Shown: positions 6,725 through 29,182 of the stretch, piece by piece
Position numbering within the stretch: position 1 is the first letter of the stretch
Layout of the letters: each line of letters begins with the position of its first letter
NCBI GenBank assembly: GCA_000611775.1
Contig: KK106985.1
Span: 2,678,648 to 2,742,647, forward strand
Length of the DNA: 64,000 bases
Direction: 5' to 3'
Source: Umbilicaria muhlenbergii
Taxonomy: Eukaryota > Ascomycota > Lecanoromycetes > Umbilicariales > Umbilicariaceae
Notes under the pieces: generated by a model
Seen by the model: the letters and a program-made list of their open reading frames with translations, nothing else
Told to the model about the DNA's origin: nothing
The model's database searches: none
Program-made: the position numbers and the translations under genes

Positions 6725-9245
6725 GCTGGCGCAATATCTACCGGTCGTTCGTCGTGGTTCGAGTTTTCAATTAATTCCATATTTGATACTTGGCTACACT
6801 TGATGGCGGTTGGATATACGGCCGAGATCTGCATGGCATTACGGGGTTCACGGGGTATCTAATTCTTGAGATGGAAACTCGGCGCTTTCTTGTCCATGAG
6901 GAACGGTGTCGCGTTTTTTTTCAACCCTTCGTTGTAATTCTTGAGGCCATGTGTGGACGAAGGGTTCGCTAGTTGTGGGAAATGCATGTGTCTGTGAGGG
7001 GATGTACGCATGAGGTGGCTGTGGTTGTGGTCTGTAGGTGTGAGAAAAGAAAGTTGTGGTTGATCGGATTCATCTGTTCGCTGATGCGCGGTTGCTCGGG
7101 GCGAATAGAGCAATCGTGCGGTCTAATACTAATGGGACATTAATCTCCGGTCATCCTACATCTTTCGCATCGTGTCGAGTGACCTTTTAAAAAAATAATG
7201 TGATATTTTCCCACACTGTAGAAATACAAGTCCGAAACAGTACTTCTCAGCTAAGGCAGCACCACACCAACAAAAAAAAATCCCTCGTCCAGCCAAAGGT
7301 ACGGCAGGTAAGACATCCGGGCCTCGCCCCCAATTTTCCCCCAATCCGCGAAATTGCGCCTCTAAGGTACCTTACCTGACTGAGGTGAGGTGAGGTAGGA
7401 TCACCGCTGCTGCTGCTGCTGTGCCAAGCCAAGCCACCAGCACACCTCAGGTACAGGGGACAGGGAACAGGGACCATGACACAGCGACACGGAACAGGGA
7501 ACGGGGAACAGGGAACAGGGGATTCGTGACGGGTGATGGGTACCTGCTCTAGCGTAAGGTACTTTTGGGTCTTTACGGACAGGGGGAGGAGAAAAGGGAA
7601 ACGAAACGGCCGGTCGCATGGGGGAGGTTGAGCCGAGTGGGCTTGCTTGCTTTGCAGGGGTGGGATGGGATGGTGAAGGGAAGGGAAGGAAGGGGTGCAG
7701 GAATCAGGCAGCGATTGGAATCTTGCCGAGATCTGGATGAATGCTGAAGGATGAATTGCTTGGTTGACGCTGTTGCCTGAGTGCGCGATGTCTGCCTAAG
7801 CGTGTGTCACCGCCGTGTTTCGCTAAGGGGGGTATGGAAGGCTATGGAGGAGGGTATTGTGGTGTGGTGTGGTGAGGATGAGGATGAGGATGAGGATGGG
7901 GGAGCGGGAAGGCTGCGGTTGGAGTGGGGTGGGTAGGATTGGGTTGGGGGAGGAGGGAAGGTAGAAGGGAGGTTGGATGGTGGAGTGGTTGATGGGGGCG
8001 ATGGGGGCGATGGGGGCGATGGGGGTGTGCGGAGGGGTTTTGAGATGATTTGAAGGCAAAGAGTGTTGGTGAGGCGAGGGAGAGGAGGACTGGTCGAGGA
8101 CGGATAGGGGAGGAAGGGGAGAGGAGGAGAGGAGTGGAGAAGAGAGGAGAGAGGAGAAGAGGAGTGAAGAGGAGAGGAGAGAGGAAGAGAGGGGAGGAGA
8201 GCGTTGTGCAATACAGATAGATGAGAATGAAGCGACTGATGGACTATGATGGTAATAAGGGTGTGTGGAGGGCTGGCGGATGGTGGAGGAAGGCAGTTTT
8301 AAGGTGGAAGATGGGAGGTATTTTATGGCGCGCCGATTTCATGGGGCGAAGAGGAGAGGGGATGAGAGGAGAGGAGAGGGGAGAGGCGGGTGGGTTGTGC
8401 GATGCTGAAGATGGAAGATGGCAAATCTTCGTGTGGGGGAATGAAGAGGAGAGGAAAGGGAGAGGTTTTACGATGAAATGGACCAATCGTGCCCGCGGAA
8501 AAGAATCCTTTCGCTTGTCAAAATTATTCTTTGGGGAAGTGTGGACGGGTGGTGGAAGGTGGAAGATGTTTGCATGGCAAAGACGATAGGATAGGAGAGG
8601 ATAGGAGAGGAGAGAGGAGAGGGTTGTGTGACATAAATGGAGCGATTCACGACTACGAAGTGTGTGCGGAGGGAGGGCCGAAATCGTCGTTGAAGGTAGA
8701 GAACCTTGGCTGGGGGCTTTCGGCGATTGTGTCGGCGAACACAGAACAATCAAGGCCGGGTTTCTCGTGCGACTTGCACGCAGATTCTGAAACGAGACGA
8801 TACGACACAATATGAGACGAGGCGACACGAGATAAGTTGAGATGAGACGAAGTAGTTGTGCCTTGCTTTGTGCAAGGTCGCTATGCTGTGTCCCCGTCAT
8901 CCATCCAGCCGAGAAATATCCACCATTACGGCATGGGTAACACGAGGTGGAAGACGTGCGCAAGGAGAGAGATGAAAAACAGAGAAAGGGGAAGAAAAAG
9001 AGCCTCCGGTGATTGTGGTATGCTATCTGCGGTACCCAATCGAAGACGAACAGAAAAGACGGGAAGATGAAGCCCTTGCTGGGATCGAATAGCTCGTGCG
9101 ACTTGAGACCGCGACTGAACCCGCTTGCGATGGCAAGGATCCTTGAGTCTCGGAGCATGGGAATCGGGATGAGGGGTTAGGACGAGACGAAGGTCTTGGA
9201 AAGAGGGGTGGGGGTTGAGGTTCGGGGCGTTTGCGATCTGTAGAG
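6725..9245. repeat. gene-poor, purine-rich tract with simple repeats
   Basis: No gene is supported across 2.5 kb. The plus strand is purine-rich from about 7560 to 8640, with runs such as GAGGATGAG x4 near 7876-7900, GATGGGGGC repeats near 7990-8025, and GGAGAGGAGA runs at 8100-8200, 8350-8390 and 8590-8625. Around 7450-7530 there is an array of GGAACAGG-like units. Long minus-strand open frames here (for example 8244-9158) are low-complexity translations of the polypyrimidine strand. Confidence 0.6.
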
Positions 9246-9351
9246 GGCCCCCTGTTGCAACTACCAGTTGGCACGCACGGCACGGCAAATACTTTCGCTT
9301 AGTGGAGCCGCGGCTACAATCGCGATTCAATTTCTATCCATCACCTCAACA

Positions 9352-10577
9352 ATGTCTTCACCCAATACCCGATCTCCAAACCCACATCAACCACGCTGGG
9401 CAACAGTCTTCCTCGCCGTGATGAACGTATTCAGCACTCTAGCACTATCACCAACGACCCCCCAAGATAGCATTGCGATACTACCCCCGACTCTTCTCTC
9501 TTCTGAGAACTCTACAACGTCGGTAAACTATATTCTCTATGACATCAGAGGACGAAGAGACGGGTGCTACTCTCTCACGGATCCGTGGCGCAGTTTCGGC
9601 GTGACTCCATCGCAGTACAAAGATCTACTGCGGGTGCTGCACAAAGACGATTCCCTTCAACTCTTCGTGGACCACAAGCTTCGGTGAGGCAGCATGTTAG
9701 CCACAAAGTCAAACAAACGCAGTCCACCAATTTTTGGAATTAGATACGATTACTTCCCATCAGCTCAGCAGTTTGTGCTTCGGATGCCCACCTACGTACA
9801 CGAACTATTCCTATCCGATGTCGTTGCAGAAATACTCGGTCAGCTAAGGTCGATTGCCCGCAGTGGATCCCCGCGAGCTGCGTTTGCTCAAGACGTCAGG
9901 CACGGCGGCTCGGCCTCTATCAAATTCGGCGATACTGTATACGGCAAGCATGACCCGGATGCCCTGTTTAAACATCGAAGAGCGCAGTATCCTGGTGTCG
10001 TCATCGAGGTGTCTTACTCGCAGAAAAGGCGGGACCTGCCACGCCTAGCAGATGATTACATCCTCGGATCGAACGGCAGTATTCGCGTGGTTGTTGGGTT
10101 GAACATCGAGTATAGAGGCAAGAAGGCTACACTGTCTATCTGGCGCCCTCAAGCCCACATAAACGATGATGGAACCGAAGTGCTTGAAGCAGAGCCGTCT
10201 GTGATAGATCAGGTATACTCCGCTTTGTCACCTACCTTACAGTTTCTTATACCAACCAGGTGATCTGCGATGAGGACGGTGCCCCAAATCCTGATTCACA
10301 AGCAGGCTTATGTCTCAAGCTCGAAGATTTTGCTGCGAAGGCCGTGGTCAAGGACTATCAGGACTTGCGTGATACAGTTTTCATCCCATACACCGACTTA
10401 TGTGCATACCTTCAAAGTGCCGAGGATGAAGCCTTGACAGTTGAGCAAGAGCAAGGGTTAGCTGACTGCCTAAGGCCGGGGAGGACAAAACGGCGCCGCG
10501 AGAGTACACCGCCGGAGCGGCTCAGATCAGACCATGAGAGAAGGTTTCAGGAGGATGAGCATCAAGTGTTGAAGTGA
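9352..10577 (+). CDS. PD-(D/E)XK-like (Uma2-type) fungal protein, intact copy
   Basis: Three exons, 9352-9683, 9744-10212 and 10260-10577, with introns of 60 and 47 nt, give 372 residues. The core (about residues 135-265) begins MPTYVHELFLSDVVAEILGQ. It then has SASIKFGD, a KHDPDALFKH stretch, the strand GVVIEVSYSQKRRDLPRLA, and RVVVGLNIEYRGKKATLSIW. The order Asp ... Glu-x-Ser-x-x-x-Lys on strands fits a PD-(D/E)XK nuclease fold of the Uma2/DUF820 kind. This family is repeated in many fungal genomes as unnamed proteins; catalysis is an inference. The C-terminal ~100 residues (GLCLKLEDFAAKAVVKDYQD onward) form a helical region with a basic patch TKRRRE. A partly deleted second copy lies at 21474-22132. 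The first exon has a hydrophobic stretch near WATVFLAVMNVFSTLAL. Confidence 0.7.
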
Positions 10578-10718
10578 GCTGTGCTTACTGACTCCTCTTA
10601 TCATGCTAGCTCTACATCAGAAACTGATAGTAGTTAGAACACTTATTAGGATGAGACTTCTGTTACTTGCTTGACACCCTTGCTTTTAAGCGTACAACAA
10701 CATTAATCAGGGAGGTTT

Positions 10719-10852
10719 GCAGTGGCGACATTGTACGTTCATCAGACCGTTGGTGTATCCCTCTTATTAATGTAGCTTACCTTGCAGTAGAGCGGCGAAC
10801 GGTCCAGAAGATACCCTATATGACTGGTATCATGACCGTAACAAGATAGTAG
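10719..10852 (+). pseudogene. fragment of the DUF6590 gene (intron 1 and flanks)
   Basis: This 134-bp piece is nearly 90 percent identical by eye to 23173-23308. It includes the end of exon 1 (GCAGTGGCGAC), the whole of intron 1 with its donor and acceptor, and the start of exon 2 (AGAGCGGCGAACG). There is no start codon or remaining gene around it, so it is a non-functional scrap left by the deletion in copy 1. Confidence 0.8.
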
Positions 10853-11294
10853 TTAAAAGCCTTTTACCATACAGCCCTCATTCATACTCTCAAACAACAA
10901 AGAGCTTATTGTAAAGCCTACACTATTCAGGTCTTCATCCTCATACACGTTACATGCCTTTCAACCAATCAAACCTTTGTCTTCTATAAATCTGTCAGAT
11001 TTCAAAGATGGTATATGTGTGCTTCCATTACTTACTCAACTTCAAGACGTAACCCTGAAGCACCTTCATGCATTTGATCACATTCTCATTGTTCTCTACC
11101 AGTTCCTTAGCTTTCTGGTCATCTCAGTTCAGATCTAGTGGCTTTCGGCCTATCAGACAGTGGAAATGCGACAGTAGGGTATTGCAAGAGGCAGTTGCTT
11201 CTTCAATGAGAGCCCTTGGCTTAGACGGGTGTATTCAGAATCTGAGCTTGAATCGTTAGAATAGTGTCTAATTATCTTAAAAATTAAAGGGAGG
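10853..11294. other. no feature recognised
   Basis: AT-richer than the flanks, no family-like open frame on either strand. Confidence 0.4.
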
Positions 11295-11558
11295 TTAAAC
11301 TGAGTCTAGATAGCAGCTCCAAAAAACATTTCTCCCAGCATCAAGCTCTTGAATGTGCAGAAGAAGGAAAGCGGCCAGGGTCACAACTACCCACATGCGT
11401 TGTTGTCTTTTCTTCATTTCATGTTGAATGCCTTTCAAAATTTTCCTGTCCAGTTCGATCATGTTCAACTCTGGTAGATGGCTGAGCTGATCTTGTATCA
11501 TATGAGGTACAGGTTTGATACCGCACCATGCGGAGCTTCTTTCTTCGACAGTGACCAT
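11295..11558 (-). pseudogene. C-terminal fragment of a fungal regulator-like protein
   Basis: An isolated minus-strand frame reads VPHMIQDQLSHLPELNMIEL, ERKILKG-like text, then QQRMWVVVTLAAFLLLHIQE and a short tail. The pattern 'VPxxIxxQLxxLLExxMxxLExKILKxLQ ... W ... AxFLLL' resembles the C-terminal end of many fungal Zn2Cys6-type regulators. That is from memory of the family, not from a search. No zinc-cluster exon or other conserved part could be found upstream (11559-12760 on the minus strand). I treat it as a leftover 3' exon. It could also be chance similarity. Confidence 0.3.
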
Positions 11559-14489
11559 TCCCAGACTTTCATCGCCAGAAAATTGCCATATACCATTCTT
11601 ACAGTCTGTGCGAGGGCACTATTATACACTCAACCAAAAACGATATCGCTCCATTCATATTGACATCTCATACAACCTCAACCTTGATCATGGTAACCCT
11701 TGCACTTATCTTGACTGTATAGGCACTGAGACAGACTAATCATATTTCCATGCTCTTCATGAATCATCTAAGATCTTATTATCAGTACCGGAACGTTGAC
11801 TGAATGTATAGAAAAGGAAGGCTGCCGTGACTTTGATTACTTACGATTGGAGCAGTGCGAAGAAGATTTTGATTGCTTATTAACACAGCCCTCACTCATA
11901 CACATGTCTTGGAAGGAAGATTATGTTAGTATCGAGTGCTGAAAGGATCATCATTTCAGGTAGATATTGGGGTCTCCTCCTTGCGTCAACTTACGTGTAT
12001 CGCACCATTTAGAGCCAGAGTATGCTCGTTTATGACATCCGCCAACGGCACAGACATCTGCAAAGTGATACTGCTAGTTAGCTAAAGTGACTGTCGTAAC
12101 TCTATAGAATCTGGCTTGGTTGAACTAGCGGCATACTTGCGAGAAGCGCAGTAATGGCCGTATTTGCTTTTGTAGGTGCAGGAATCGCTCTAGCAAACGT
12201 CTAGCAGGTTGAAAATGGGTTAAAAGTTCGAACGTTTTCCTTTATGCTAAAGTGGTTATTTGGATCATCAACCAACTAACGCTCTTCGCAGTACATGTGG
12301 CCTATACCGAAAATGGCTCTCTTGCATCTACCTGTGAAACCAGTTTTCTGACACCTATCTGTTGTATTTGATAGACAGTGCAATGAATACCTAAGCTTTT
12401 TGGCAGAGGCTTACGCTGGTGGCAGTTATAGCTTCCAGAGCTTGGTCGTTCGCTGCAAGTCAAAAATGCACATGTCGAATTCCGAATCGAGACTGCCAGA
12501 AAGTTGCTACGTCCTGTCATGGTGATTGTTAGGATACTAAGATGCTTTTATGGAGAGGTAAGCTTCAATAAGACAAGGATTTGTCTCAGCGTTAACAAAG
12601 CTACTGAAAGATAGAGAAGATTTTCGGGGTTTCGTATACGGTTTTATGGCTGTACACGAAACCGAGTTTCTCGGAGGTACCACATTATTTAAGAGAAGAA
12701 TTTGGGACGCAATGCAAGCCACACACTTGGAAGTGGGGTTGTAGCCAATCACCAGGATCTACAACCTGAACATGTTACACTGTAGTGACTCAATGACGTG
12801 GCGAACTAGCTGGCACCCAAACATATGTCGCAGCCTGATAACTTTTGAACCCAGATCACTTTCGCATAGAACGAGTAGAGGTGAGCTTAAAGAAAATAAT
12901 ATCGTAACCTCGAAAATGAAAATTAAACATTCCTACAGGACCGGACCAGCAATATCCGCCAAGACAGGTCGTAGCAGATCAGGCCGGGTTTATCCATCAC
13001 TGAAGCCTCCGCCAGACATTAACATGAAGACGCGGCTTACTCCGCTCCAGGGTAGGAGGCAAAATAGCAGGCAAAATCGTAGGCATCGGATGAGGGGCTG
13101 AGTCCTAGCAGCAAAAGGCTGAACCGAGCGATAACGTTAATGAATATTATTATAAGAAAAATTGAACAGCTATAGCCGAGTACGAGGCAGCCAAGTCAGG
13201 CTCCCTGTGGCTGCACCCTTCTTCATATGGGGAGCCAGAACAGCTTCCTCCCTGCATGCTTCCCGTGCTCCTCCCGTGCTCCCTCTATAGCGGCCGTGCT
13301 CCCTTTCCCGAACGAAAACGACAATGACCAATCCTAAGTTCGGGGTGTATATACATATTGCAGTCAGACCCCGACCTGAGACGCTCTGAGAGAGAGAGGA
13401 GGGGAGGGGGAAGGGAAGGGCAGGTGCGAGAATGATGATTGTAGGCTAACGATGAGACAGTGAGAAGGAACTGGGGTCGGTGATCACGCGGGAATTTCCA
13501 AAGGGTGGAAGGAGAGGAAGGCGCTTGTAACATATCATGAACCGTGTGGCAAGATGATTAGGGGCTGGAGAGGAAGGGCGCGTGGTGATGCGGATGGGGC
13601 GAGGAGGGTACTTGGAAGGCTGTTGCGTGGACCGTGGTAGTGGGGAGAGACAGTTTCTGGATGGGGGTTGGGGAGTGCGGAAAGGGGGATTGAGAAATGA
13701 GAAACGCTGCGCTGGGGGAGGATGGCGGAGCCAAGGATGCTTTTCCAAAAGGTTGTTTCTTTTCTCTTCTGGGTGATCGTGCGTCGGACACGACAAGGAT
13801 GTATGTGATCAGCATAGTGGGCGATTTACTCGTATTGTCCTTCCCTCCCCAACGACTGCATCTAGCCCAGCACGCGGTTGACATAAAAAAATGCCACATC
13901 AAAATCAAGTTCGAAGACTCTGACGCGCAGAGGCGAAGCCCGTTGCAAATACGGGCAGTGAGGAGTGTTGAGGAGGTCACAAAGAGGCCGGTGGTGACCT
14001 GGGTGAGAAGGGCAGATAAAGTAGGTTTGGTGAGAGGTAACGGCCCGCGCGGAGGAAAAGGTCAGCTCTTAGTTCAGGCCTCAGTCAACGGAAGGAAGAG
14101 AAACTACATGTAGCAAAGACAAGTAACAATAACAAGGCGATGAGGCAGAGGAAGTTGTTCAACGAGTCAAGGTGTACAACCTCAAAGAAAACAGGTTTGT
14201 TCTCCAAGCAGACACCGCAGAGCGATCTTTTTGATATCAAAAGAATAGATAGCTCCCGGTTTGCGGACTGGATCGCAATTATCCAAAGCACATAAGCCCT
14301 GATGACAGAAAGTATGTTGGTATCAAAGACTTTCTTCAATGTTAATCTATCTTTCTCAAATATGAGAAGCCGTGAAATCTGACGCCAGCGTCGAGTGTGA
14401 AGATAGCCCCAAGTCTATACCCCAGCCTAGTTTTCTACCCCATGTATATCCGGTTGAATGTCCGTCATTTCAATCATGAAATCCATAAA
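11559..14489. other. gene-poor stretch
   Basis: No gene supported over 2.9 kb. The 11.6-13.1 kb part is AT-rich with many stops in all frames. From 13.3 kb the base composition rises in G on the plus strand, with a GA-rich run near 13390-13420. Confidence 0.45.
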
Positions 14490-15059
14490 CTATTGCCCAG
14501 CATAATGTCCCCTCTTGTGGCTCTTCAATCTACCCAGTCTCGCGCCCGTCGGTAACGCAGTTCCAGCCCCATCGGTCGAGTTCGCATGCAAGCCCGTCGC
14601 ATTAGCGTTTATGAGAGTGTGGGTCAGGTAGTTGGTCGCGAGTTGAGTAAGAGTGTGGCGGGGATTATCTTCGACGGCGGAGGCCTTTGTGATGGCTGGG
14701 TCCTCTTCCTCTTGTGCGATAGTGGGGGTGGCGGTCACCGTGACGGTCTGGTAGGCTGTTTCCGTCACGGTGGCTTTGCCGCAAATTCCATCGGCAGATT
14801 CTAGAGCGGAGGGGGGGCTGGCAATGGATGAGGCGATAAAGTAGGAAGAGCCAATTGCACCGACGTCAACGTAGGAAGTTGTAAGTCCGCTCGGGGCTGG
14901 CGTAGCAGTGGGGCCGTATGAGAAAGTCGTGTTCGATAGAGGATATGGAATCCCCGTTGCGGTGATGTTGCTGAAGGAAGCGTTCAAGAAGCCTGAGCTC
15001 TGGGCACAAGTAGATGATACGAAGACAGCGAGAGCACTAAGAGCGATAATGAGAGCCAT
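14490..15059 (-). CDS. small secreted protein
   Basis: Single exon, 189 residues. The first 19 residues (MALIIALSALAVFVSSTCA) form a signal peptide with a probable cut after the second Ala-type site. The mature part is rich in Ser, Thr, Ala and Asn. It has several N-glycosylation sites of the NAS/NIT/NTT kind and the stretch KATVTETAYQTVTVTATPTI, which is common in fungal surface proteins. There are only two cysteines outside the signal peptide, and the end is basic (LKSHKRGHYAGQ) rather than a GPI signal. No family is recognised. It could be a wall-associated or extracellular protein. The start ATG is the only one before the hydrophobic stretch. Confidence 0.65.
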   Translation of the reverse strand: MALIIALSALAVFVSSTCAQSSGFLNASFSNITATGIPYPLSNTTFSYGPTATPAPSGLTTSYVDVGAIGSSYFIASSIASPPSALESADGICGKATVTETAYQTVTVTATPTIAQEEEDPAITKASAVEDNPRHTLTQLATNYLTHTLINANATGLHANSTDGAGTALPTGARLGRLKSHKRGHYAGQ

Positions 15060-16180
15060 CTTGTTTGATGTGGTTCCGAAATGGATTGAAGAGAAGGTCG
15101 ATGTAGATGAAAGTTGCTGTCAAAGCTGTAGAGATCGATGCTTGTAACTTAGAGAATAAAGAGTGTATTTTCTTGGAACCACATGCCCAAGCAGACGATG
15201 TAAAGAGTGAAAGATCGGAACGTGACTGTATGCGTTTGATTGCAGAGACGAAGTAGAGAAATCCCTGGTGGGAGAGCACCAGCTAAATATCCTCCTCCCT
15301 CCCTTTCTCCTTCCTCCCTCGCCTCCCCATAAACCTTCCCAAGCAAACACTATGGGACGCCATCTTAGCCTTTTGGCTCAAGGCTGCGGAAGGGGCTGCC
15401 CAGGTAGGATGGGCAGGTCCCCATGAGGTAGCTACGTGGTACGCGTGTCCGCTGCAGGTGCCCACCTTCCAAGCTGGTGCGAGGAGGCACAGCGGAACTC
15501 GGGGCCCCGGGCGATTGACAGACTCCGATGCGGAACTCCTGACTCCTAGATGGGGTAAAAGGGAAAGGTCCGAACTATGGGACTCTCCGTCAGGGCTGGC
15601 CCAGCTTTGGTTCCGTGGTACGTGGCCATGGCGGATCGGAATTAGGAAAAGCTGAAGAAGGGATGAAGTTGGGAGTGGAGAGTTGGTGGCCCGCTTAGTC
15701 CAAGGTTAATGGCTCGGCATTTCTCGTCCAGGCTCCAGCCCAATGATGAATACCCTGGTTGAACCCGAGACATACCGTACGCGTAGGCTGTGGGCATAAT
15801 CGTAGATATCCATGAAGTCGTCAGCGTTGCTGGCTCCCGTCATCAGATATATCGAGCTGTTATCGAATGCCAGATGGAGCGAAGAAGGTTCCGTAGATCC
15901 TCTCAGGTTTGGGCTTAAAATAAGGGGCAGTTTTCAGCTGGGGACGCCGCCCTGCTTGCTTCCACAAGGTGCATATGAATGCAGGTTTCAATCGAAAACA
16001 CATGTGAAATGCCTTGCATGCATAGTAATTCACCGTGAGTATAAGGCGCGTCAACTCATTGGTCTGCACAGTTTCTGAAGAGTTATTACTATATGTTCGT
16101 CGAATGTCGTACGTGACGGCCTCCCCAGACTGACCAGTTGCCTTTGTTACACGGGCCTAGAAGAGGTTTAACCTCCCCCC
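15060..16180. other. intergenic, nothing recognised
   Basis: Upstream region of the minus-strand secreted-protein gene. It holds a CT-rich run at about 15293-15330 on the plus strand. No other gene or repeat was recognised. Confidence 0.4.
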
Positions 16181-17034
16181 CAGTGTGGCGGAACACCCCG
16201 TGTCCGGGAACAAGTCTGTTCCGGTTGCACCACGAATTTTTATGATTCATAAAGCAACCCAGTCTAGTCACAAATCAACTAGATCATTCATAATTCAACA
16301 GTCAATTCATGAATAGACGTCTGTTCATAATGCAACCGAAGAACTCATGTCCTGACTAATGCTGCTTATTTGGGGCGGAGTTTCCCATACGCCACCACTA
16401 CTAGTAGCAAGCCTCCTGCACATTCAATACATAGTAAGCCAGTCGGAAAAAACGAGAAGAAGTATGAATAGTATTGAATTTAATGATTTCTGGGGAGTTT
16501 TATAGAGACAAAGTCAAATTGACTGAGAAAGGAGGACTTCGATGATGAGAGAAAGAAAACAGAAGAAGCAGAACAAGTGGGAGGTCTTATAGACCTTGAC
16601 AAGAAGGGAATTATTCACCGTGGCGCAGTGCACGGGGTTGGTACGGAACCGTGCACCAAAAGTCATGACCAGACGCTAAAAACGCCACCTGCATGCCCCC
16701 CCTGCCTTAGACTTTATTCCTAATCGGGTAATACTTCATAAATCGAAAGAGTTTTATGTTTCAGATAGGTGAGTCAATTCAGCAGCTTTCTAAGCATACT
16801 AACATGCGTATAGGAACTGTACACCTTGACAGCAGCCTCCTCACTGTTGCTACTACTCTCACTGCTGCTGCCGCCGCCCTCACTGCCGCCGCCGGCCCCC
16901 CCCCACTTATAAAAACTGGCTCGTCGCTGCTGCTGATGTTCACCAGCCTCAACCCCTCACCCCTGGCAGCCCAAGTCAACGAAGTGCTGCCAGAATTGGA
17001 GCACCCCCTTACTGCCAGCTAGGCCTCACTGGCG

Positions 17035-17378
17035 CTGTTCCACGCCTCACACGGCCTCGGCCCTCACGTCCTCAAGCCACACGTCCTCATCCTCAGCCTC
17101 TTGTCGGATGTACCTCGCTGTCAGAGGAGGAGGAGACAGGGCTTGCAGAGGAGCTTCTGGCAGTGGATGCTGACTCAGGGCTAGGCAGCTCAGGCCCTGC
17201 TGACGTTGTTTCACACCTCACAACGCCTCGCCCTCCACGTCCTTGAGCCACACGTCCTCATCCTCACTCTCACCCTCTAGCTGGACGTTCCTCGCTGGCA
17301 GAGAAGGCAGAGATAAAGCTTGTTGAGGAGCTTCTGGCAGAGGATGCTCGCCCAGGGGTAGGGGGCTCAGAGTCTTGT
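17035..17378. repeat. ~170-bp tandem duplication inside the Tc1-type element
   Basis: Copy A (about 17038-17208) and copy B (about 17209-17378) share the blocks CCACACGTCCTCATCCTCA and GAGGAGCTTCTGGCAG in the same order and spacing. They differ at many positions, so the duplication is not recent. Confidence 0.75.
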
Positions 17379-17649
17379 CTGGCTTGTTCAGCATATTCAG
17401 GACTGCTTCTTCCTTGTCAGAAGTTACCATTTTGAGACGGCCAGAACAAGGAGCGTCTGCAACATATTCAGTCAATATTATCTTTGATTTCTCTGGATCG
17501 TAGCCTCTCTCTTGAGCAGTCTTCTTCAGGTGATTTACAGAACATATAGACAAGCCTGTCAAGTCTGCAACAATCTTTGTAGGGGCTCCATACTCTGCTA
17601 GGGCAAGGGCTTGAACTCTGGTCCCTGGATCATGTGATTTGACTACCAT
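17218..17649 (-). pseudogene. truncated Tc1-type transposase
   Basis: 143-residue open frame. The first ~95 residues fit the helix-turn-helix DNA-binding part of fungal Tc1-like transposases: ALALAEYGAPTKIVADLTGL, then a recognition-helix stretch, ERGYDPEKS, ILTEYVADAPCSGR and KEEAVLNML. After that the frame runs into Ser/Pro/Glu-rich text unlike a transposase, encoded by the ~170-bp tandem duplication. The DDE/D catalytic domain is absent. Confidence 0.75.
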
Positions 17650-18126
17650 ATTGCTGGATATTGAGTATTCTAACTGACTACGAAGTCTACTACTAAAGGA
17701 AGATATTCAAAGGCTCCCCTTTTCCTCACTGCCTTTTCAGGGTGAGAATCTACCCCCTGCCCTACCCCTGCCCTACTCCCTGCCATACCCCTGTATGTGG
17801 CGCATGCACGAAAAGGCGCTAGTCATGACTTTTGGTGCACGGTTCCGTATACGGGTTAGTATACAATCTAGAAAATACACAACTTCGGCCCGTCAGCCGA
17901 AGCAGGCTTCATCGAGCTGATTACCGCTTCTGGAACGCCTCCACCAGGGGGTGTTCCGCCTCATAAAAAGCGCCTCAGAAAGCAGCATTGGCTGGCTCAT
18001 GAAGCAGCCAGTTCACTGACGAAGTGGCTAGTCAATTCACGAAGAAGCAGTCACTTCATGAAGTATGGGGTGGTTTGTGAGCCAACCGAGGCGATTCACG
18101 AATCTTACATAATTCATGACTAGACT

Positions 18127-18774
18127 ATAACAAGTCCAAGGTACTTTGACTTCTGGGCAATGCACAATCTGTAGACACGTTGATAATTTCATAATACCAC
18201 GCCCGACGCGTTTTATAGCTAATTCTTAATTTCCGAGATCCTTTCGATATAAAAATTACATAAGAATAGTTGTGCTGTTGCTCGATTAAAGTAAGATGTA
18301 CGCCATAAGGCCACGAACAATGTTTCTCACCACAGCACCAACCACGTTACGATCGACTCTGCGCTGAACGATGACTCTAGGTTGTATTGTAATGTGGCTT
18401 CCCGCCGGCAGAAGAAGACTGGAGAGTTGGTAAGAAGAACTTGGAAATCGGGACGTTTCGGGTTAGTATCGGCTAACCCCGCAACATGTTTGCTCTGAAA
18501 AGAACGCGAAACCCGCAAATATAGAAAGACTTGTCGCTTAAGATATAGTAAAGCTTTTGCGCTCCTTAACAAGAGGATGTAAGCTGACGATAGAGTCTTT
18601 GAAGTTCTAATAACTGATTTCGAGTATTGTAGCCACGTTTGCGTCAATTTATGACAGTTGAAATGGAGTCAATCCAAGGCCGTTTAGCGTATCTATAATT
18701 CTCGCGCGAATAAATACAACGATTCCTGGCACCCCTCGTTCGCGAATCGTTTCGTTTCGTTTCTGAATCCGTAA
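18127..18774. other. intergenic, nothing recognised
   Basis: AT-rich sequence with no family-like open frame. Confidence 0.4.
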
Positions 18775-19145
18775 ACTGGGTGGCATATAGTGGATCTCGC
18801 ATGCGGAACAGGACTGGTCACTTTTGCTGCAGCTCGATAGTTGGACCTTCGGGCTCTGTAATAGGCGTGGGTGTTAGAGATGGCATGTTGTCGGTTGCAA
18901 GAAACGAACTCTCCCGATTAAAGAGCCAGGAAAGTTGTTGGGAGAATGTTGAATTTTACCATCACATCACTAGGCTAAAGGAGCTTGAACCGATCCGGGG
19001 AAAGAAGTTTGATGCGATTACTTACATTAATAGTAGATATCAGCGATAGAACGAAAGTGCAGAGTTTCACATCGCAGTATCTTGAGACAATGAAACACGG
19101 TGGTGTTCGATTCTTAATATTTTACAGTTCAAAAGAGCGTCATCG
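18775..19145 (+). pseudogene. SAM-dependent methyltransferase remnant
   Basis: One frame (from 18790) reads VDLACGTGLVTFAAA, the class I methyltransferase motif I. The next frame then takes over without a gap in meaning: SIVGPSGSVIGVGVRDGMLS, VEFYHH, LKELEPIRGKKFDAITYI. A third frame later reads SFTSQYLETMKHGG, like the 'L.PGG' strand. Colinear family text spread over three frames within 370 bp, with no start codon or splice sites to join them, indicates a decayed host gene of the UbiE/COQ5-like methyltransferase type. The first frame break lies near 18830. The N-terminus and C-terminus are missing. Confidence 0.72.
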
Positions 19146-19343
19146 GCGCGATATATGCTATAAGTAAGGCGTGTTGAAATGCTTTACCAAGGTGTTTTCC
19201 GTGACTGTTGAAGCCAGGAACACAGAATCAAATACAGCCAGTATTCCCAGAATCAATTTGACCCCCGATTTCCCACATTTCCTTAGTAATCGTCTCCTCG
19301 GGAGATCACCTCCTTGCAATTGGGCCGGAGCAGAACGGTCTAT

Positions 19344-20881
19344 TTAAAAGATTGCGTCAGCATATTCCGCGGTCTTCAACTCGTGGACCATACTCACATG
19401 CTCAAACTGTGCGACATAAGAGCCAGGAACATCGACCAGCGGTCCATAGGACTCAATAATGCCATTCGAGACGAGCGATCTCATGCCGAGGTGGTAATTC
19501 TTCACTCCAATGCGCTCAAGGTAACGCCTGGAGAAGACCAGAGTTCCGAAGTTCTCATCGATCGTCTTCAGCAGCGACTTGGCGGAGGCATGATGAAGAC
19601 CAGCAGCGCCGGCATGCTCATTGCGCCCGTAGCCGTAAACTCCTACGTCATCTTTGACATAAGCTTTGCCAGTGCTGCCGAAGGTTTCGATGGCGAACAC
19701 ATCGCCTTCTTCCATGCGTTGGGTGGTTCGGGTCTTGACGAAGGGGACTTGTTTGTCGCCATGGATCTTGTAGCGCAGGATGTTATGGCCAGTGATGTTC
19801 TGAATCGCTTTGACAGGGATGATCTTTCGGTTGAGCTCGACTTCGTAGCTCTCCATTACTTCTTGGATTGCCTCACTGATGTGATCCATCCGGGAATCGA
19901 TGCCAGCTTCCTGGGCGTTTATTTAGCTTTGCAGACGCCATGCAGGGCAGATTCGCTTACCTTGAGCCCAGTATTGGTGGCTGCCTTGACAGCCGCGAGC
20001 AGATTATCGTAGGCCGGATTGAAAGCCACGGTAAAGGCGCTATCGACAATCCTGCCGCTGACATGAACTCCGAAATCCACTTTCAGGAGATCGTCGTACT
20101 GGAGGATAACCTCCTTGGCTCCAGGATTGGGAGTCCAGTGAGCAGCTACGTTGTTCAAGCAGAGCCCAGTCGGAAATCCCATGCCGGCTTTGAGAGCGTC
20201 TCCGGTCTCAAGACCTTGGTGGTTGGTCAGTGCCCGAACGCCATCCTCAATCTCTTGGGCAAGCTGGCTCATGGAAACGCCGGGCTTTGCGATCGTCTGC
20301 ACATACTGGCGGACCTGGCGATGGACTTCGGCAGCTTTGCGATAGTCATTCAGGAACTCATCATCCATGTTGTTCACGACGAATAGGTGACGAAGTTCTT
20401 CAGCCGTGGTGCGCCGAAGATTGTCATTGTCGGTGATATATTCGACAATCTCGCCCTCCGGATATCGCTGATCGTGAAAGAGGTTGGCGAGTGCAACCCT
20501 CGGAGGAGTCGTCTGCTGTCCACCCAGTGCCTTCCTTTTCTTCTTCTTGTTACTCTTTCTTTTTTTTTTCTTGCCTTCTGGGGTTAGCTTCAAGTGTGTA
20601 TTAACTTCAAGTTGGCTTACTATTGTTGGGCTGACCACCGGACTTCAGGTCAGCTCCAATCTTGTCGTCGTCCTCGTCCTCCCCGTCTTCGTCTTCCCCT
20701 TCGAGTGCACCATGAAGGAGTCCACTTGCTGCTGCTGGCTTGGGAGGATTGACGGCAGCAATTGCAGCGCGTGCCGATGACTCTGCTCAAGGTGTCAGAA
20801 TAGCTTACAACGCAAAGCAAATACTTTTTTCCCCATACCATTTGGACCTCTACCATGATCATCTGGTGTCTTGGATCCCAT
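19344..20881 (-). CDS. MAP2: methionine aminopeptidase 2
   Basis: Four exons, 20881-20839, 20782-20621, 20577-19961 and 19910-19344, give 462 residues with all junctions in frame. MetAP2 removes the initiator methionine from nascent proteins in the cytosol. The N-terminus has the usual acidic run ([14 protein letters not shown]) followed by a Lys-rich block ([15 protein letters not shown]), as in ribosome-associated MetAP2. The expected metal and active-site residues are all present: His215 (CLNNVAAHW), Asp236 and Asp247 ([17 protein letters not shown]), His316 ([10 protein letters not shown]), Glu349 (FAIETFG) and Glu444 (QFEHV). The last ~18 residues ([17 protein letters not shown]) differ from the common ending of the family (HTxxLRPTxKEVVSxGDDY). 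Fungi often keep two or more MetAP2 paralogues and this is probably a diverged one. Confidence 0.92.
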
Positions 20882-21473
20882 GATCGGCTTCGACTCGTAG
20901 TCATAAGGTTCCTTAGGTCGTCGTTGATGCCATTAAAGGTCGGCTTCGAAGAGATCGCAAGGGAGCGAGGTCGCCGGCATGTCTTGGCACACGCTTTACC
21001 ATTTTAGGCGATCGGCGCATTGGCAGGACGCCTTGGTCGTCATCAACCAGGGAGGATAGGTCCGGCACCTCTTTATGCGATGAAAGAACCGATCGAGGAC
21101 GAGGCTAAGCCCCACGTAATTTTACCGCTGAAAGCCGAATTCGCGTCAGATAGAGCCTAAAGGACATAGGTATTCCGATTGTAGATTGATAACGGAATAG
21201 AGTAGAGTATTAGAAGCTAATATGTCTAAGTCGTTCCATCACGCTGGGTTTTCCATTATAGGGAGGAGGTTACTGCCATTCAGTAATGGCCGCCCTTTGG
21301 TCAAAATACAGTACCTTAGCATTTCTGGATAAGGCATCCAGGTGACCTCCTGCAACAAACGCACGAGGAATGGGAACTCTTTATTATCACTGCGGAGTAC
21401 AGAGCTCAATGGCTTGCCAAGTTTACGGAATTCATAACCTTAAGGACTGATATCGGTGCTTTGTTGGGCGGAA
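20882..21473. other. upstream region of MAP2, nothing else recognised
   Basis: No gene supported. The MAP2 promoter must lie in the left part of this stretch. Confidence 0.4.
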
Positions 21474-22132
21474 GGCCCCCCTGTTGCAACTACCAGTTGG
21501 CACGGCAAATACTTTCGCTAGTGGAGATCAACAGCCGTCACAATCATCGCGCGTCGATCACATACAATAATAATGTCTTTATCCCACACCTAACCACTCC
21601 AACCTGCATCAAGCACTCTTGACATCGGTCAGCTTGCAGTCATGAGCATATCCAGCGCTAAACCCTTACCGGCGACCCCCCCGGACAGCTCGAATACCGA
21701 TCCGCAAGCAGGCTTACGTCTTCAGCTCGAAGACTTTGCTGCCAAGGCCGTGGTCAAGGACTATCGTGACTTGCATGATACAGTCTTCATCCCGTTCACA
21801 GATCTAAGTGCATACCTCAGAAATGCGGAGGATCGAGCATTGATGATCCAGCAAAAGCAAGGGTTAGCTGACTGCAAGTGCCTAGGGCCAGGGGCGAGAA
21901 AACGGCGCTGAGAGAGTACGCCGCTGGAGCAGCTCAGACCAGACTGTGAGAAAAGGTTTTGAGAGAATGAGAGTCGAGCATTGGAGCGAGCTGCGCTCAC
22001 TGACTCATCTTATGCTAGCTCAGCATCAGAAGCTGACAGCGGCTTAAACCCTCATTAATATGAGACTTCTATTACTTGCTTGGCACCCTTGCTTTTAAGC
22101 GGACAACAACGTTGATCAGAGAGGTTGTGCAG
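21474..22132 (+). repeat. copy 2 of the duplicated segment, internally deleted
   Basis: It matches copy 1 at both ends. The 5' match is 21474-21690 with 9246-9470, and the 3' match is 21700-22132 with about 10285-10722. The ~0.8 kb in between, which encodes the nuclease-like core in copy 1, is missing. The similarity to copy 1 ends at the GCAG at 22129-22132. Confidence 0.8.
21642..21911 (+). pseudogene. remnant of the PD-(D/E)XK-like gene (N-terminal leader joined to C-terminal helix region)
   Basis: An 89-residue open frame begins MSISSAKPLPATPPDSS and continues into GLRLQLEDFAAKAVVKDYRD, FIPFTDLSAYL and a basic end (GARKRR). The second half is clearly the same as the C-terminal part of the gene at 9352-10577. 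All of the putative nuclease core is absent. The frame remains open, so a short protein could still be made, but it would lack the domain. The family's usual upstream ATG near 21572 is followed by early stops. Confidence 0.65.
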
Positions 22133-22752
22133 CGGATTTGCATCGATTTTGCATATAGTTTTCAATATGAGTTCGCGCTGAATCAAGCTATATAAAGCTA
22201 TACAGTAGCAGCGGTGTTGAGGAGATGGTTTCTCATTTCCATATATATGATAGTTATACCTGTGCTTGTTTATAAAGCTACAGCGTTCAAAAGCACTTAA
22301 CAGCATGCACTTGATCGTGAAACTCTGCAAAACGTGTTGTCTACAGCAGTCGCTGTAAAGAGGCTTGTCAAAGCACAAAATAGAAGGGTTCAACACTACC
22401 GTCTTAGATCTTGATGTGGAACTTTTATGACCACATGTCTATGCTACATGACAAGCACATGACATTCCTTGCAGCAGGCATTGCGAAGGGCTCCCCAGCT
22501 TCTTATTTTTATTTGATTCGCCTGGCGAGCCTGTTAGGACTGTTACATATGTAATCCGTATATGCACTCTCATGAACGAATCGCTTGCATCCAGGCGCCA
22601 GAGTGCAGCAAGATTGCTCGTCATGCCTGAATAAGCTGTTACCTTCGCAAGGCCTCCGCTGCGCCACAATGTTCAGAAAGTGCAGAACGATGCATGCGGT
22701 TCAAAAGACGCTCACACACAGTTATCTGAAGCTATTGCTTTGTTGATTTACA
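22133..22752. other. upstream region of the DUF6590 gene
   Basis: No gene recognised. This is the stretch, together with most of exon 1 of the following gene, that is missing from copy 1. Confidence 0.45.
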
Positions 22753-24219
22753 ATGGCCATAGGCTGGTCCGTCGGCGACATCATTGCTTGCGGCCAGCTA
22801 GCTTACAGACTCATCCAAGCTTTACGAGACAGTGGTGGAGCAAAGACAGACTACCAAGATCTGATCAACGATCTATCCAGTATACACAGAACCCTGCTGG
22901 AAGTTGAGCAGATGCATCATGCGAGCCAGCTCACTACGGCGACTGTCAACGCCATCCTTTTTGAGGCTCACTCGTTGACAAAGATCATGGATGAGTTTCT
23001 AGGGACGATCCAAGCTTATCATAGCGCTTTATCTGGATTGCCCGCTGGAAGCTCAAGCAATCGATATCGGGACTTGGTGAAGAAGTTGCGTTGGAGTTTC
23101 TCCGAGGCTGACGGGATTCAGGCTTTGAGAAAGCGGCTGGCTTCCCATTTGCAGTCTATTACTACTTTAATAGCAGTGGCGACCTTGTACGTTCATCGGA
23201 CCGTTAGTGTATCCCTCTTATTAACGTACCTTTACTTGCAGTAGAGCGGCGAACGATCCAGAAGATACCCTTTATGACCGGTATCATGAGCGTAACAAGA
23301 CAGTAGTGGAGGACGTCGACACTCTTGTCGTGTACAAGCATATCTCTAAGGGTGCAGGCGGGCCAGAAGATGAACCAACCGAGCTTATCGAGCCATGTAA
23401 GCCCAGGAGGAGACTTTTCCCTTTCAAATGGCACCATCATCGCAAGCCTGATTTGTTGCTAGCCTACCAGAGGGTGAAACAACCCGAGAAATTCTTCCGC
23501 CTCGGGCAAGTCTTCCAGATGATAGACAGCCTTAGCGAGCCAGATCCCAGGGAGGGAACGTATATATCGTACATGAAAAGTTGCTACATTGGCGGTCATA
23601 GGGTTAGGCGTTTTGTCGTTGTACAAGAGGGTACAAAAGCAAGCACCTGCTTGTAAGTTCTGTCATCCCCTTGGGAGTTCCCCCAGGCTTCTCTACCTAA
23701 TAATATAGTCCACTGATTTGCACAAGGAAAATTGCCACATTCGCCGGTCAGGGCTGCGCTCATCAAAGGCACAAGAGTGACTTCGGCATCGTTCACACAA
23801 GTAGACAAATTCCGCATAAGCTACCAGGCGAAGAAGCGATGACCAGGCTACCAATACGAGTAAAAGCCGCTCATCCTTCCGCCGCACTGCACCGAGCATC
23901 GAGGGTCAACTATGGCGCTGTATACACCGTAGCCCACAGTGTTCGAGTGAAGGCAGTTGGCTTGGTTCACGTGGACTCGATGCTGCGATTGATAGAGAAC
24001 TTTGAGAAATGGAAAACCGACGGGCAGGAAACACATCCAGAACGCGAAAAGAACGAGCCACCCGTTCAATCTCTTGAGAACTCCTACATTGAACGAGCAC
24101 CAGAGGTCACAGATCCAAAACACAGCTCAGACACATCCGTTCTCGAGATGATGTCCAATGGATATGATCAACAACTCACGCAGATGCAACCAGACTCCCA
24201 ATTTGTTGAACCGGCCTGA
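22753..24219 (+). CDS. Helo-like N-terminal domain plus DUF6590-type protein
   Basis: Three exons, 22753-23186, 23242-23652 and 23727-24219, give 445 residues in one frame. Residues 1-145 (MAIGWSVGDIIACGQLAYRL, then TDYQDLINDLSSIHRTLLEV) match the helical N-terminal domain found on many fungal STAND/NLR-like proteins (Helo-like_N). Residues ~225-390 match the fungal domain DUF6590: KFFRLGQVFQMI, RRFVVVQEG, the strand KIATFAGQGC after intron 2, FGIVHTS, MTRLPIRVKAAHP, then RVNYGAVYTV and KAVGLVHVDSM. The tail is Glu/Pro-rich. No NTPase or repeat domain is present, so it is not a full NLR. DUF6590 has no known activity. Intron 1 and its flanks are copied at 10719-10852. Confidence 0.75.
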
Positions 24220-24454
24220 TTGAGCCTTTTATGGGGAGATGCAGGAGTTCGAGCCGCTCTTCCATCGTGGCTTGTTTCTACACACCTCGAATCCTAGACT
24301 GGTAATATTCAATCCGAAACTCAGGCACGAAATCAGGCCACGTCCACTCTTCAACGAAGCCCTATCTCACGATTCGACATAAATGCCAAAAGCATACCTA
24401 TACACATATACAACCCTAACACAACCCAACATCCCACCCCGTCGCACCCCATCC

Positions 24455-26954
24455 CTACAACTTCGCCCTCCCCTCCGTGGCCCTATGCACCTCCCCCCCC
24501 CTCTCCCGAAAATACTCCCCCACCTTCGCCCTCGCCACCGCCACCACCCCCGCATCCTCCACCGTCGCCGGAACCTGAACCTCCTTCTCAAACTCGCCAT
24601 GCACCGCATTCTCCACCAACTCCCTCAACACCCTTCTCAGCGTCTTGCCCGATCGAGTTTTCGGAATCATTCCTTTCCCCTGCACGATTCCGCCGAGGGC
24701 GGCGATGGCGCCGATTTGGGTCCGCACGAGGGACTGGAGTTCGGATGTTAGGGCGGGGGTGGGGATGGCGGAGGAGGGGTGCGTGGGGGTGGAGAGGGTG
24801 ATGAATGCGAAGGGGAGGTGGCCTTTTAGAGCGTCGGGGATGCCGACGACGGCGCATTCGGCGATGGAGGGGTGCGAGGAGATGGCTTGTTCGATGGAGC
24901 CTGGGGGAGCGGGTTAGCCGGTTTGTTATTATGAAGGGGAAAGAGCGAGGGGCGATGGGAAAGGGGGGAGTTACCGGTGCTGAAGCGGTGGGCGGCGACG
25001 TTGATGATGTCGTCGCTGCGAGACATGATGTGCACGTAGCCGTCTTCGTCGATCATGCCCGCGTCGCCCGTGTCGATCCATTTGCCGTCGAAGCGCTTCA
25101 TGTAGCCCTTGTAGAAGCGCTCTTCGTCGCCGAAGAGAGTGGTCAGCCCTGTGGGTGCGAGCGGGATGCCCATGACTATGTTGCCCATTTGCCCTCTTTT
25201 GACTTCGTTGCCTTCGTCGTCGACGGTTCGCACGTCGAAGCCAGGCATTGGCTTACCGGCTGATCCGGGTTTGACGAGGAGGGGCTTATGGTGCGTTTTG
25301 GATTGGTGGTCCTTGCCGACTGGGGCGGACAGTGCTATGCCGGAGATTGGGGAGCCGGACTCAGATGACCACCAGTTGTCGATGACTTGGGCTCCTGGCG
25401 CGCCGTATTGCTCGAGCAATTTCTGGTACATCTTCACGATACTCGGCTCGCTTCTTTCGCCGGCGAGGAAGAGCGCTCGCAGATGCCTTAGCCCATCTCG
25501 CTTTCCCACTTTCTCGAAGAACTCGTTGTCCGGGTCATCTCGACGGATGGCACGGAGGGCAGTCGGCGCGGTACTTAGGATATTGACTTTGTATTCTTCA
25601 AGGATTCTCCAGAACGTCCCCGCGTCTGGTGTCCCGACTGGCTTGCCTTCGAAGAGTACAGTTGCCGCGCCGGCTAGGAGAGGGGCATAGAGGATGTAGG
25701 AGTGCCCGACTACCCAGCCGATGTCTGAGGCGCAGAATATCACGTCGCCGGGGCCGTGGATGCCGAAGAGGTATTTGATGGAGAGATTGAGGCCAACTGC
25801 GTGACCACCGGCTTCTCGGAGGACGCCCTTGGGGAGGCCAGTTGTGCCTGTTCGTATGATTATCAGCATGTAAGCCTAAGTTACCCCTTTCTAGAAGTCC
25901 ATGAGTTGCCTCAACGTCGAGTGATAGTGCCTGCCACCGCTATAGATTCACAGCCAACTCAGGACATCCGCGTCCTCTCAACGTAGACAACGGGTTCTTA
26001 CCACTCGTATAAATAATGTATACCCCATCATTACTCTTGACCGGCACACAATCTGCCTTGATACCCCTATCTTTCGCACTGCTCACCAGTTTCTGCCAAT
26101 TCCTCTCACCATTCTCCTTCACCACCGGATCCCACCTGGATTCCTCCCGCTGCCATATAATTACCTTTTCCGGCTTGAAACTGCTCTTCTGCACTGCCCC
26201 CTCGATGAATGGTTTGTAATTCATAGGCGCTTTCGAGCCCTCGATTCCACAGGATGCTGTCATGATTACTCGGGGCTTGGATGCTTCGATACGCTGGGCC
26301 AATGATGCGGGGGCGAAACCGCCGAAGACGACGGCGTGGATGGCGCCGAGGCGGGAGATGGCTAGGAGGGCAAAGAGGGCCGCTGGTATCATGGGCACTG
26401 GCGAGGTCAGCTGCAATTGTAGGGAAAGCTCGGACAGAGTACTAACTGTAGAGGAGAACTACATCACCCTTCTTCACCCCCTCATCTCGCAGCACACCAG
26501 CAAGTATCTCCACTTCACTGAGTAGTTGCTTGTATGTGTACTTCTCCTTTCTTCCAGTGACCGGCGAGTCCCAAATAATCGCCGTCGAGTCGCCATTACC
26601 ATTCTTGACATGCCGATCCACGCAATTGTAGGAAGTGGATATCTCGCCGTCAGGGAACCATGTCCAATGCGGATGACTGGTGCCGCTAGGAAGCTTCTTG
26701 GTGGTTTTCTTTAAGCTGCTGGAGGGCTTCTTGTGCCAGTGCAACTGCTCAGCATGGTGGCTCCAGAATGACTCTGGGTTCTTGACAGACTGCGATTGAA
26801 CTTCGTCTTGGATGTGGGGCGCCATTGTGGTGAATCGTCTGAGCCCTTCTGTCCGCCGGTCTGGAACTTGTCGGCTTCGTTTTGCGCAGATGTCGGCGAT
26901 GCGTGTAGGAGCACAAGGTCTACGGAGCAAGGTACGAAAGGACGAGAAGGCCAT
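24455..26954 (-). CDS. acyl-CoA synthetase, ACSS3/propionyl-CoA synthetase-like
   Basis: Four exons, 26954-26447, 26397-26002, 25847-24975 and 24900-24455, give 740 residues. It activates a short-chain acid (propionate or acetate are the family's substrates) to its CoA thioester through an acyl-AMP. Visible motifs: YTFKQL-like start of the ACS N-terminus (KYTYKQLLSEVEILAGVL), YMPMIPAALFALLAISRLGA, the AMP-binding loop YTSGTTGLPKGV assembled across intron 2, DIGWVVGHSYILYAPL, WWSSESGSPI, DTGDAGMIDEDGY, the hinge motif SRSDDIINVAAHRFSTGSIE across intron 3, and the catalytic Lys in KTRSGKTLRRVLREL. The VAAHRFSTG and DALKGHLPFAF text favours ACSS3/PrpE over acetyl-CoA synthetase. The first ~43 residues are Arg/Ser-rich without acids, like a mitochondrial targeting sequence, and a second ATG follows at MAPHIQDEV. 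Confidence 0.9.
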
Positions 26955-28890: not shown

Positions 28891-29182
28891 AAGAGAATCG
28901 GACATAAGTCATGCATAGAGAGGAACCCCCCGGGCAAATCTCCTAATGAGCTGTTGCGAATTTCCAAGTACCGCTATAAGTGGTAATCTCCAGCCGAGGC
29001 CCCTCCTGATATCACAACAGTGAAAGCGATACATCTAGGTCCTTGAAAGGTAAGTGGAAAAGATTCGCAGCTTCTACTATTGCTGCATTAACTGATCTGT
29101 CTTGTTTGTTGAGTGGTTGAGGGGCCCCTCAGCTGAGGGCTGGCAGTTCTCTCTCTATGCATGACTTATGTCCGATTCTCTT
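28891..29182. mobile_element. 292-bp MITE-like element with perfect 32-bp inverted repeats
   Basis: 28891-28922 (starting AAGAGAATCGGACATAAGTC) is the exact reverse complement of 29151-29182. The 228-bp inside has no open frame. It contains two further related blocks in inverted order (AGCCGAGGCCCCTC near 28994 and GAGGGGCCCCTCAGCTGAGG near 29120). Perfect repeats suggest that it is fairly young. I see no clear target-site duplication; a TA/TG pair directly at the ends is the closest candidate. Confidence 0.75.

Follow-up and report, generated by a model that had tools for sequence, protein, structure and literature searches.

Partial segmental duplication followed by non-functionalisation of the duplicates is a general pattern. 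The locus described here shares its features: the duplication edge truncates one copy, redundant sequence has suffered deletions and stop codons, and each gene is left with one apparently intact copy. The only difference that we found is an uneven divergence between the duplicated pieces. Two genes are involved. The first gene encodes a putative member of the PD-(D/E)XK superfamily, in which the classical motif has E-x-K, while the family found here has E-x-S/A. The second belongs to DUF6590 (PF20233), a domain of unknown function of which there is no mention in the literature searched.

Both genes lie in a window of 64,000 nucleotides of Umbilicaria muhlenbergii (C5:2678648-2742647), which ends approximately 74 kb short of the end of contig C5. 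The genome comprises 34.8 Mb in 7 contigs, and its short GT-AG introns and genes suggest a filamentous ascomycete. The arrangement most probably goes back to an ordinary, partial segmental duplication and subsequent decay of the copies, rather than to selection for a working pair. If this reading is right, the locus is a small, clean case of duplicate decay in a fungus with little wider import. It would illustrate that a complementary pattern of losses can arise when the edge of a duplication cuts one gene, so that such a pattern alone is no sign of pair selection.

Two damaged copies of one segment

The intervals 9244-10853 (copy 1) and 21473-23307 (copy 2), both on the forward strand, constitute one collinear segment in direct orientation that is present as two damaged copies. 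BLAST of the window against itself links them by three collinear direct matches: 9244-9307 with 21473-21526 (83% identity), 10287-10725 with 21693-22135 (80%, E 9e-109) and 10719-10853 with 23173-23307 (91%, E 2e-48). In the gapped alignment the first match continues across the start codon as far as 9463/21681, and visual inspection extends it to about 9472. The original prediction that both intervals are the same segment is borne out by these alignments, in which the similarity is collinear and not limited to short patches. Its coordinates and deletion sizes (approximately 1.04 kb in copy 1 and 0.8 kb in copy 2) are correct within a few bases. Genome searches with either copy, which score the best candidates only, revealed no third place for the segment among the matches listed. 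The 135-base piece that forms the third match, searched alone at E<=10, was found only at the two known places among the matches listed, and does not match many genomic sites equally well.

Copy 1 contains an apparently intact nuclease-like gene (9352..10577, forward strand) with an open frame and GT-AG introns. Its three exons (9352-9683, 9744-10212 and 10260-10577) yield a predicted product of 372 aa by conceptual splicing. The core of this gene, including both introns, is absent from copy 2. In the gapped alignment the missing stretch corresponds to 9473..10283 of the forward strand (approximately 0.81 kb), with edges that are uncertain by about 10 bases and a left edge placed partly by eye. 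It has no counterpart elsewhere in the window at E<=1. What remains in copy 2 is a pseudogene remnant (21573..21989, forward strand) that consists of the 5' end and a part of exon 3. Six codons past the position equivalent to the start codon the remnant carries a stop, and its exon 3 part has another two in frame.

Copy 2 leads into an apparently intact DUF6590 gene (22753..24219, forward strand), with exons at 22753-23186, 23242-23652 and 23727-24219 and a predicted product of 445 aa after conceptual splicing of the three. According to the gapped alignment, a forward-strand stretch of 1,044 bases (22129..23172) is absent from copy 1; it comprises the upstream region and 420 of the 434 bases of exon 1. 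This placement is equivalent to 22133-23176, as the tetranucleotide GCAG is found at both edges of the stretch in copy 2 and once at the junction in copy 1. The DUF6590 remnant of copy 1 (10719..10853, forward strand, 91% identical to 23173-23307) begins with the equivalent of the final 14 bases of exon 1, continues through intron 1 and ends after 66 bases of exon 2. Here the homology stops, at position 10853. The remaining 0.9 kb or so of the gene (23308-24219) has no counterpart in the rest of the window (best blastn E 0.17), and a sensitive tblastn search with the protein over 10854-19000 gave nothing convincing of the missing part (best E 0.70).

The simplest reading of this truncation is that the duplicated stretch ended at 10853 and that the DUF6590 gene of copy 1 never worked; a once complete gene may also have been truncated later. 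We propose that the ancestral neighbourhood of copy 2 contained both genes in complete form, the nuclease-like gene ahead of the DUF6590 gene, and that this place was the donor. A piece of approximately 2.65 kb would have been copied to a place about 12 kb away. It would have started roughly 100 bases before the start codon of the nuclease-like gene and reached 66 bases into exon 2 of the DUF6590 gene. The new copy 1 would have carried a whole nuclease-like gene and a truncated DUF6590 gene. A deletion would then have removed 1,044 bases from the dead DUF6590 fragment of copy 1 and left the GCAG overlap at the junction, as end-joining at a short overlap may do. In copy 2, where the nuclease-like gene would have been redundant, approximately 0.81 kb of that gene would have been deleted and stop codons gained. 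Because the DUF6590 gene of copy 1 would have been dead on arrival, its internal deletion needs no selection. The single observation that points to the direction of copying is the truncation of copy 1; the order of the events and their neutrality are likewise proposed. With one large loss per copy, the losses would be expected to hit different genes about half the time.

The DUF6590 gene and its N-terminal domain

The membership of the second gene in DUF6590 is clear: the protein reaches 124.8 bits (cut-off 27) over profile positions 2-151 of 152, in a version that is four residues shorter at the first splice site. The profile search returned five rows, two of which are exons of the window gene. 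The others mark further DUF6590 places at C2:1779029, C2:1782157 and C5:1695656, the last of which is marginal (28.4 and 26.9 bits in two runs, with the cut-off at 27). The region C2:1779029-1787968 holds two neighbouring DUF6590 matches; at a distance of approximately 1-5 kb there are ORFs that carry DEAD and Helicase_C domains and a weak Piwi match below the cut-off.

Exon 1 (22753-23186) encodes a domain with a weak likeness to Rx_N (E 0.00033) and SesA (E 0.094), both below the cut-off. Outside the window, 13 rows were listed for this domain at E<=0.1, nine of them at E<=0.001. The domain sets the window gene apart from the DUF6590 ORF on C5, which has no convincing match to it (best blastp E 0.45). 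In the C2 stretch, only residues 230-374 of the window protein are matched.

These observations bear on an alternative in which copy 2 acquired the 1,044 bases, with the upstream region and the N-terminal exon, by insertion, with no loss from copy 1. Such an insertion would agree with the arrangement of GCAG, which is found on either side of the stretch in copy 2 and once in copy 1, and with the lack of a convincing N-terminal match at the other DUF6590 places. However, the end of exon 1 and its splice donor still have counterparts in copy 1. In addition, the match to the N-terminal domain passes the position of the copy 1 junction (residue 141), at low identity, in five of the six loci fetched out of the 13 rows listed; in the sixth it ends at residue 132. 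There is also no inverted repeat with arms of at least 40 bases in 8500-24500. Because the homology passes the junction at five of six loci and copy 1 retains the exon end and splice donor, loss of the 1,044 bases from copy 1 is the better reading, and we regard the insertion as unlikely.

The nuclease-like family and the neighbourhood of the two genes

The nuclease-like gene has relatives at four other loci of the genome (C3:1806628, C2:6437897, C5:2535106 and C1:2309024), with similar exon breaks. The matched exons at C2:6437897 and C5:2535106 are free of stops; the matches at C3:1806628 and C1:2309024 contain stops, which may lie in introns. Three of the four loci were aligned over exon 2, where they are 51, 54 and 40% identical to the window protein; C5:2535106, which scores the same as C2:6437897, was omitted. 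The motif P-D-x15-E-x-S/A is present in all four aligned members, with P71, D72 and E88 invariant. The members at C2:6437897-6439138 and C5:2535106-2536347 sit in a 3.4-kb unit that is 98% identical between the two contigs. The unit ends in a stretch of approximately 442 bases that recurs in the genome, and of at least 42 rows that a search with the unit gave, at least 36 match only that stretch.

The PD-(D/E)XK-like label given in the original prediction is carried by this motif, whose P-D...E part is present, with E-x-S/A in the place of E-x-K; a profile match to a known member family was not obtained, and neither profile nor fold searches confirmed the assignment. The protein matches no Pfam family above the cut-off and no PDB sequence at E<=10. 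Comparison by hhalign with a profile of 12 bacterial Uma2 (PF05685) ORFs gave an alignment of only ten columns, located at the expected motif (probability 0.3%, score 15.8). Of 20 column shuffles, 19 scored lower (10.0-15.3) and one scored higher (19.2), and the comparison is not convincing. The match falls on the P-x-x-I-x-E-V part of the family's motif, which we read as a likeness to Uma2. A structure model predicted from the single sequence of exon 2 has low confidence (mean pLDDT 44) and gave no PDB fold matches at E<=0.001. Among viral contigs, 54 pattern matches were found and none was confirmed as a relative. One of 40 pattern matches in genome contigs, in a Luteibacter contig, was confirmed over 22 residues, which we judged to be chance.

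The original prediction left a choice between chance decay and selection to keep one of each gene, and held that frequent adjacency of the two genes elsewhere would support a functional or mobile pair and its lack a local accident. Within this genome the two families do not recur as neighbours. No DUF6590 match was found near any of the four other nuclease-like loci (10 kb fetched for each, E<=1), and no nuclease-like match in the stretches fetched for the three other DUF6590 places, counts that are for one genome and in which short exons can be missed. The genome-wide match lists of both families place none nearby either. By the reasoning of the prediction, this argues for a local accident.

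Selection for the pair would mean that the whole pair was duplicated and that one working copy of each gene was kept. One apparently intact copy of each is indeed found within 15 kb, and the collinear copies show that the genes were neighbours before the duplication. This part of the prediction holds locally. Across the genome it does not, since the nuclease-like family has four other loci, and "exactly one of each" is therefore a local description only. Moreover, copy 1 also lacks the last 0.9 kb or so of the DUF6590 gene, which the edge of the segment cuts off, the adjacency is found at none of the other places, and ordinary selection on each gene alone would yield the same picture. Decay fits these results, and we consider selection for the pair quite unlikely. 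Conserved adjacency in other genomes would indicate a partner for the domain of unknown function.

A mobile element as the carrier of the segment, or of the nuclease-like gene, is very improbable. The nearly identical 3.4-kb units with their recurrent end are suggestive of such an element, but the window segment is found at two places only among the matches listed, and 8500-24500 contains neither an inverted repeat of at least 40 bases nor a direct repeat of that size joining the ends of the segment. Least probable of all is a conserved two-gene system of the lineage, formed by the nuclease-like protein and the DUF6590 protein with its Rx_N/SesA-like domain, in which the reciprocal losses would reflect selection for one working unit split over two sites.

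Divergence between the copies and other features of the window

Partial duplication and decay does not explain why the pieces have diverged unevenly. The DUF6590 piece is identical at 123 of 135 positions, compared to 353 of 429 ungapped columns for exon 3 of the nuclease-like gene and its 3' flank (Fisher p 0.014). Within exon 3, synonymous differences amount to 0.31 per site, against 19 of 136 positions in the 3' flank. This counts against a single event with even neutral decay, because more even values would be predicted. Two explanations offer themselves: separate histories of the pieces, through gene conversion or multiple events, or unequal constraint on the sites.

A simple count for exon 3 puts dN/dS between the copies at 0.43, so that for some of their history both nuclease-like copies may have been functional. 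This value may or may not reflect purifying selection on the copy 2 remnant, as transitions dominate (42 of 57) and the differences, in a separate alignment, are spread almost evenly over the codon positions (22, 17 and 21). Repeat-induced point mutation was rejected as the source of the divergence: in exon 3, C>T plus G>A changes number 18 from copy 1 to copy 2 and 24 in reverse, which gives no direction. TpA/ApT ratios are 0.91 for copy 1, 0.79 for copy 2 and 0.71 for the window as a whole.

Comparison with the out-paralogues gives small differences between the copies at conserved columns. Of the 19 columns in which three out-paralogues agree, 18 are retained in copy 1 and 15 in copy 2; for the 54 columns in which two of three agree, the numbers are 32 and 29. 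Polarised in this manner, 13 differences are changes in copy 2 and eight are changes in copy 1.

The last 10 kb of contig C5 form an AT-rich contig end with 30.6% GC; no telomere repeats (TTAGGG/CCCTAA) were found in these 10 kb or in the first 3 kb of the contig. Between the two copies of the segment, self-BLAST shows a tandem duplication of approximately 180 bases with 77% identity at 17016-17370. An ORF on the reverse strand at 17221-17706 has a weak HTH_23 match below the cut-off, and is possibly a relic of a Tc1/mariner-like transposase. Further downstream, self-BLAST shows a short inverted repeat between 28891-28926 and 29146-29182, with 97% identity over 37 columns.
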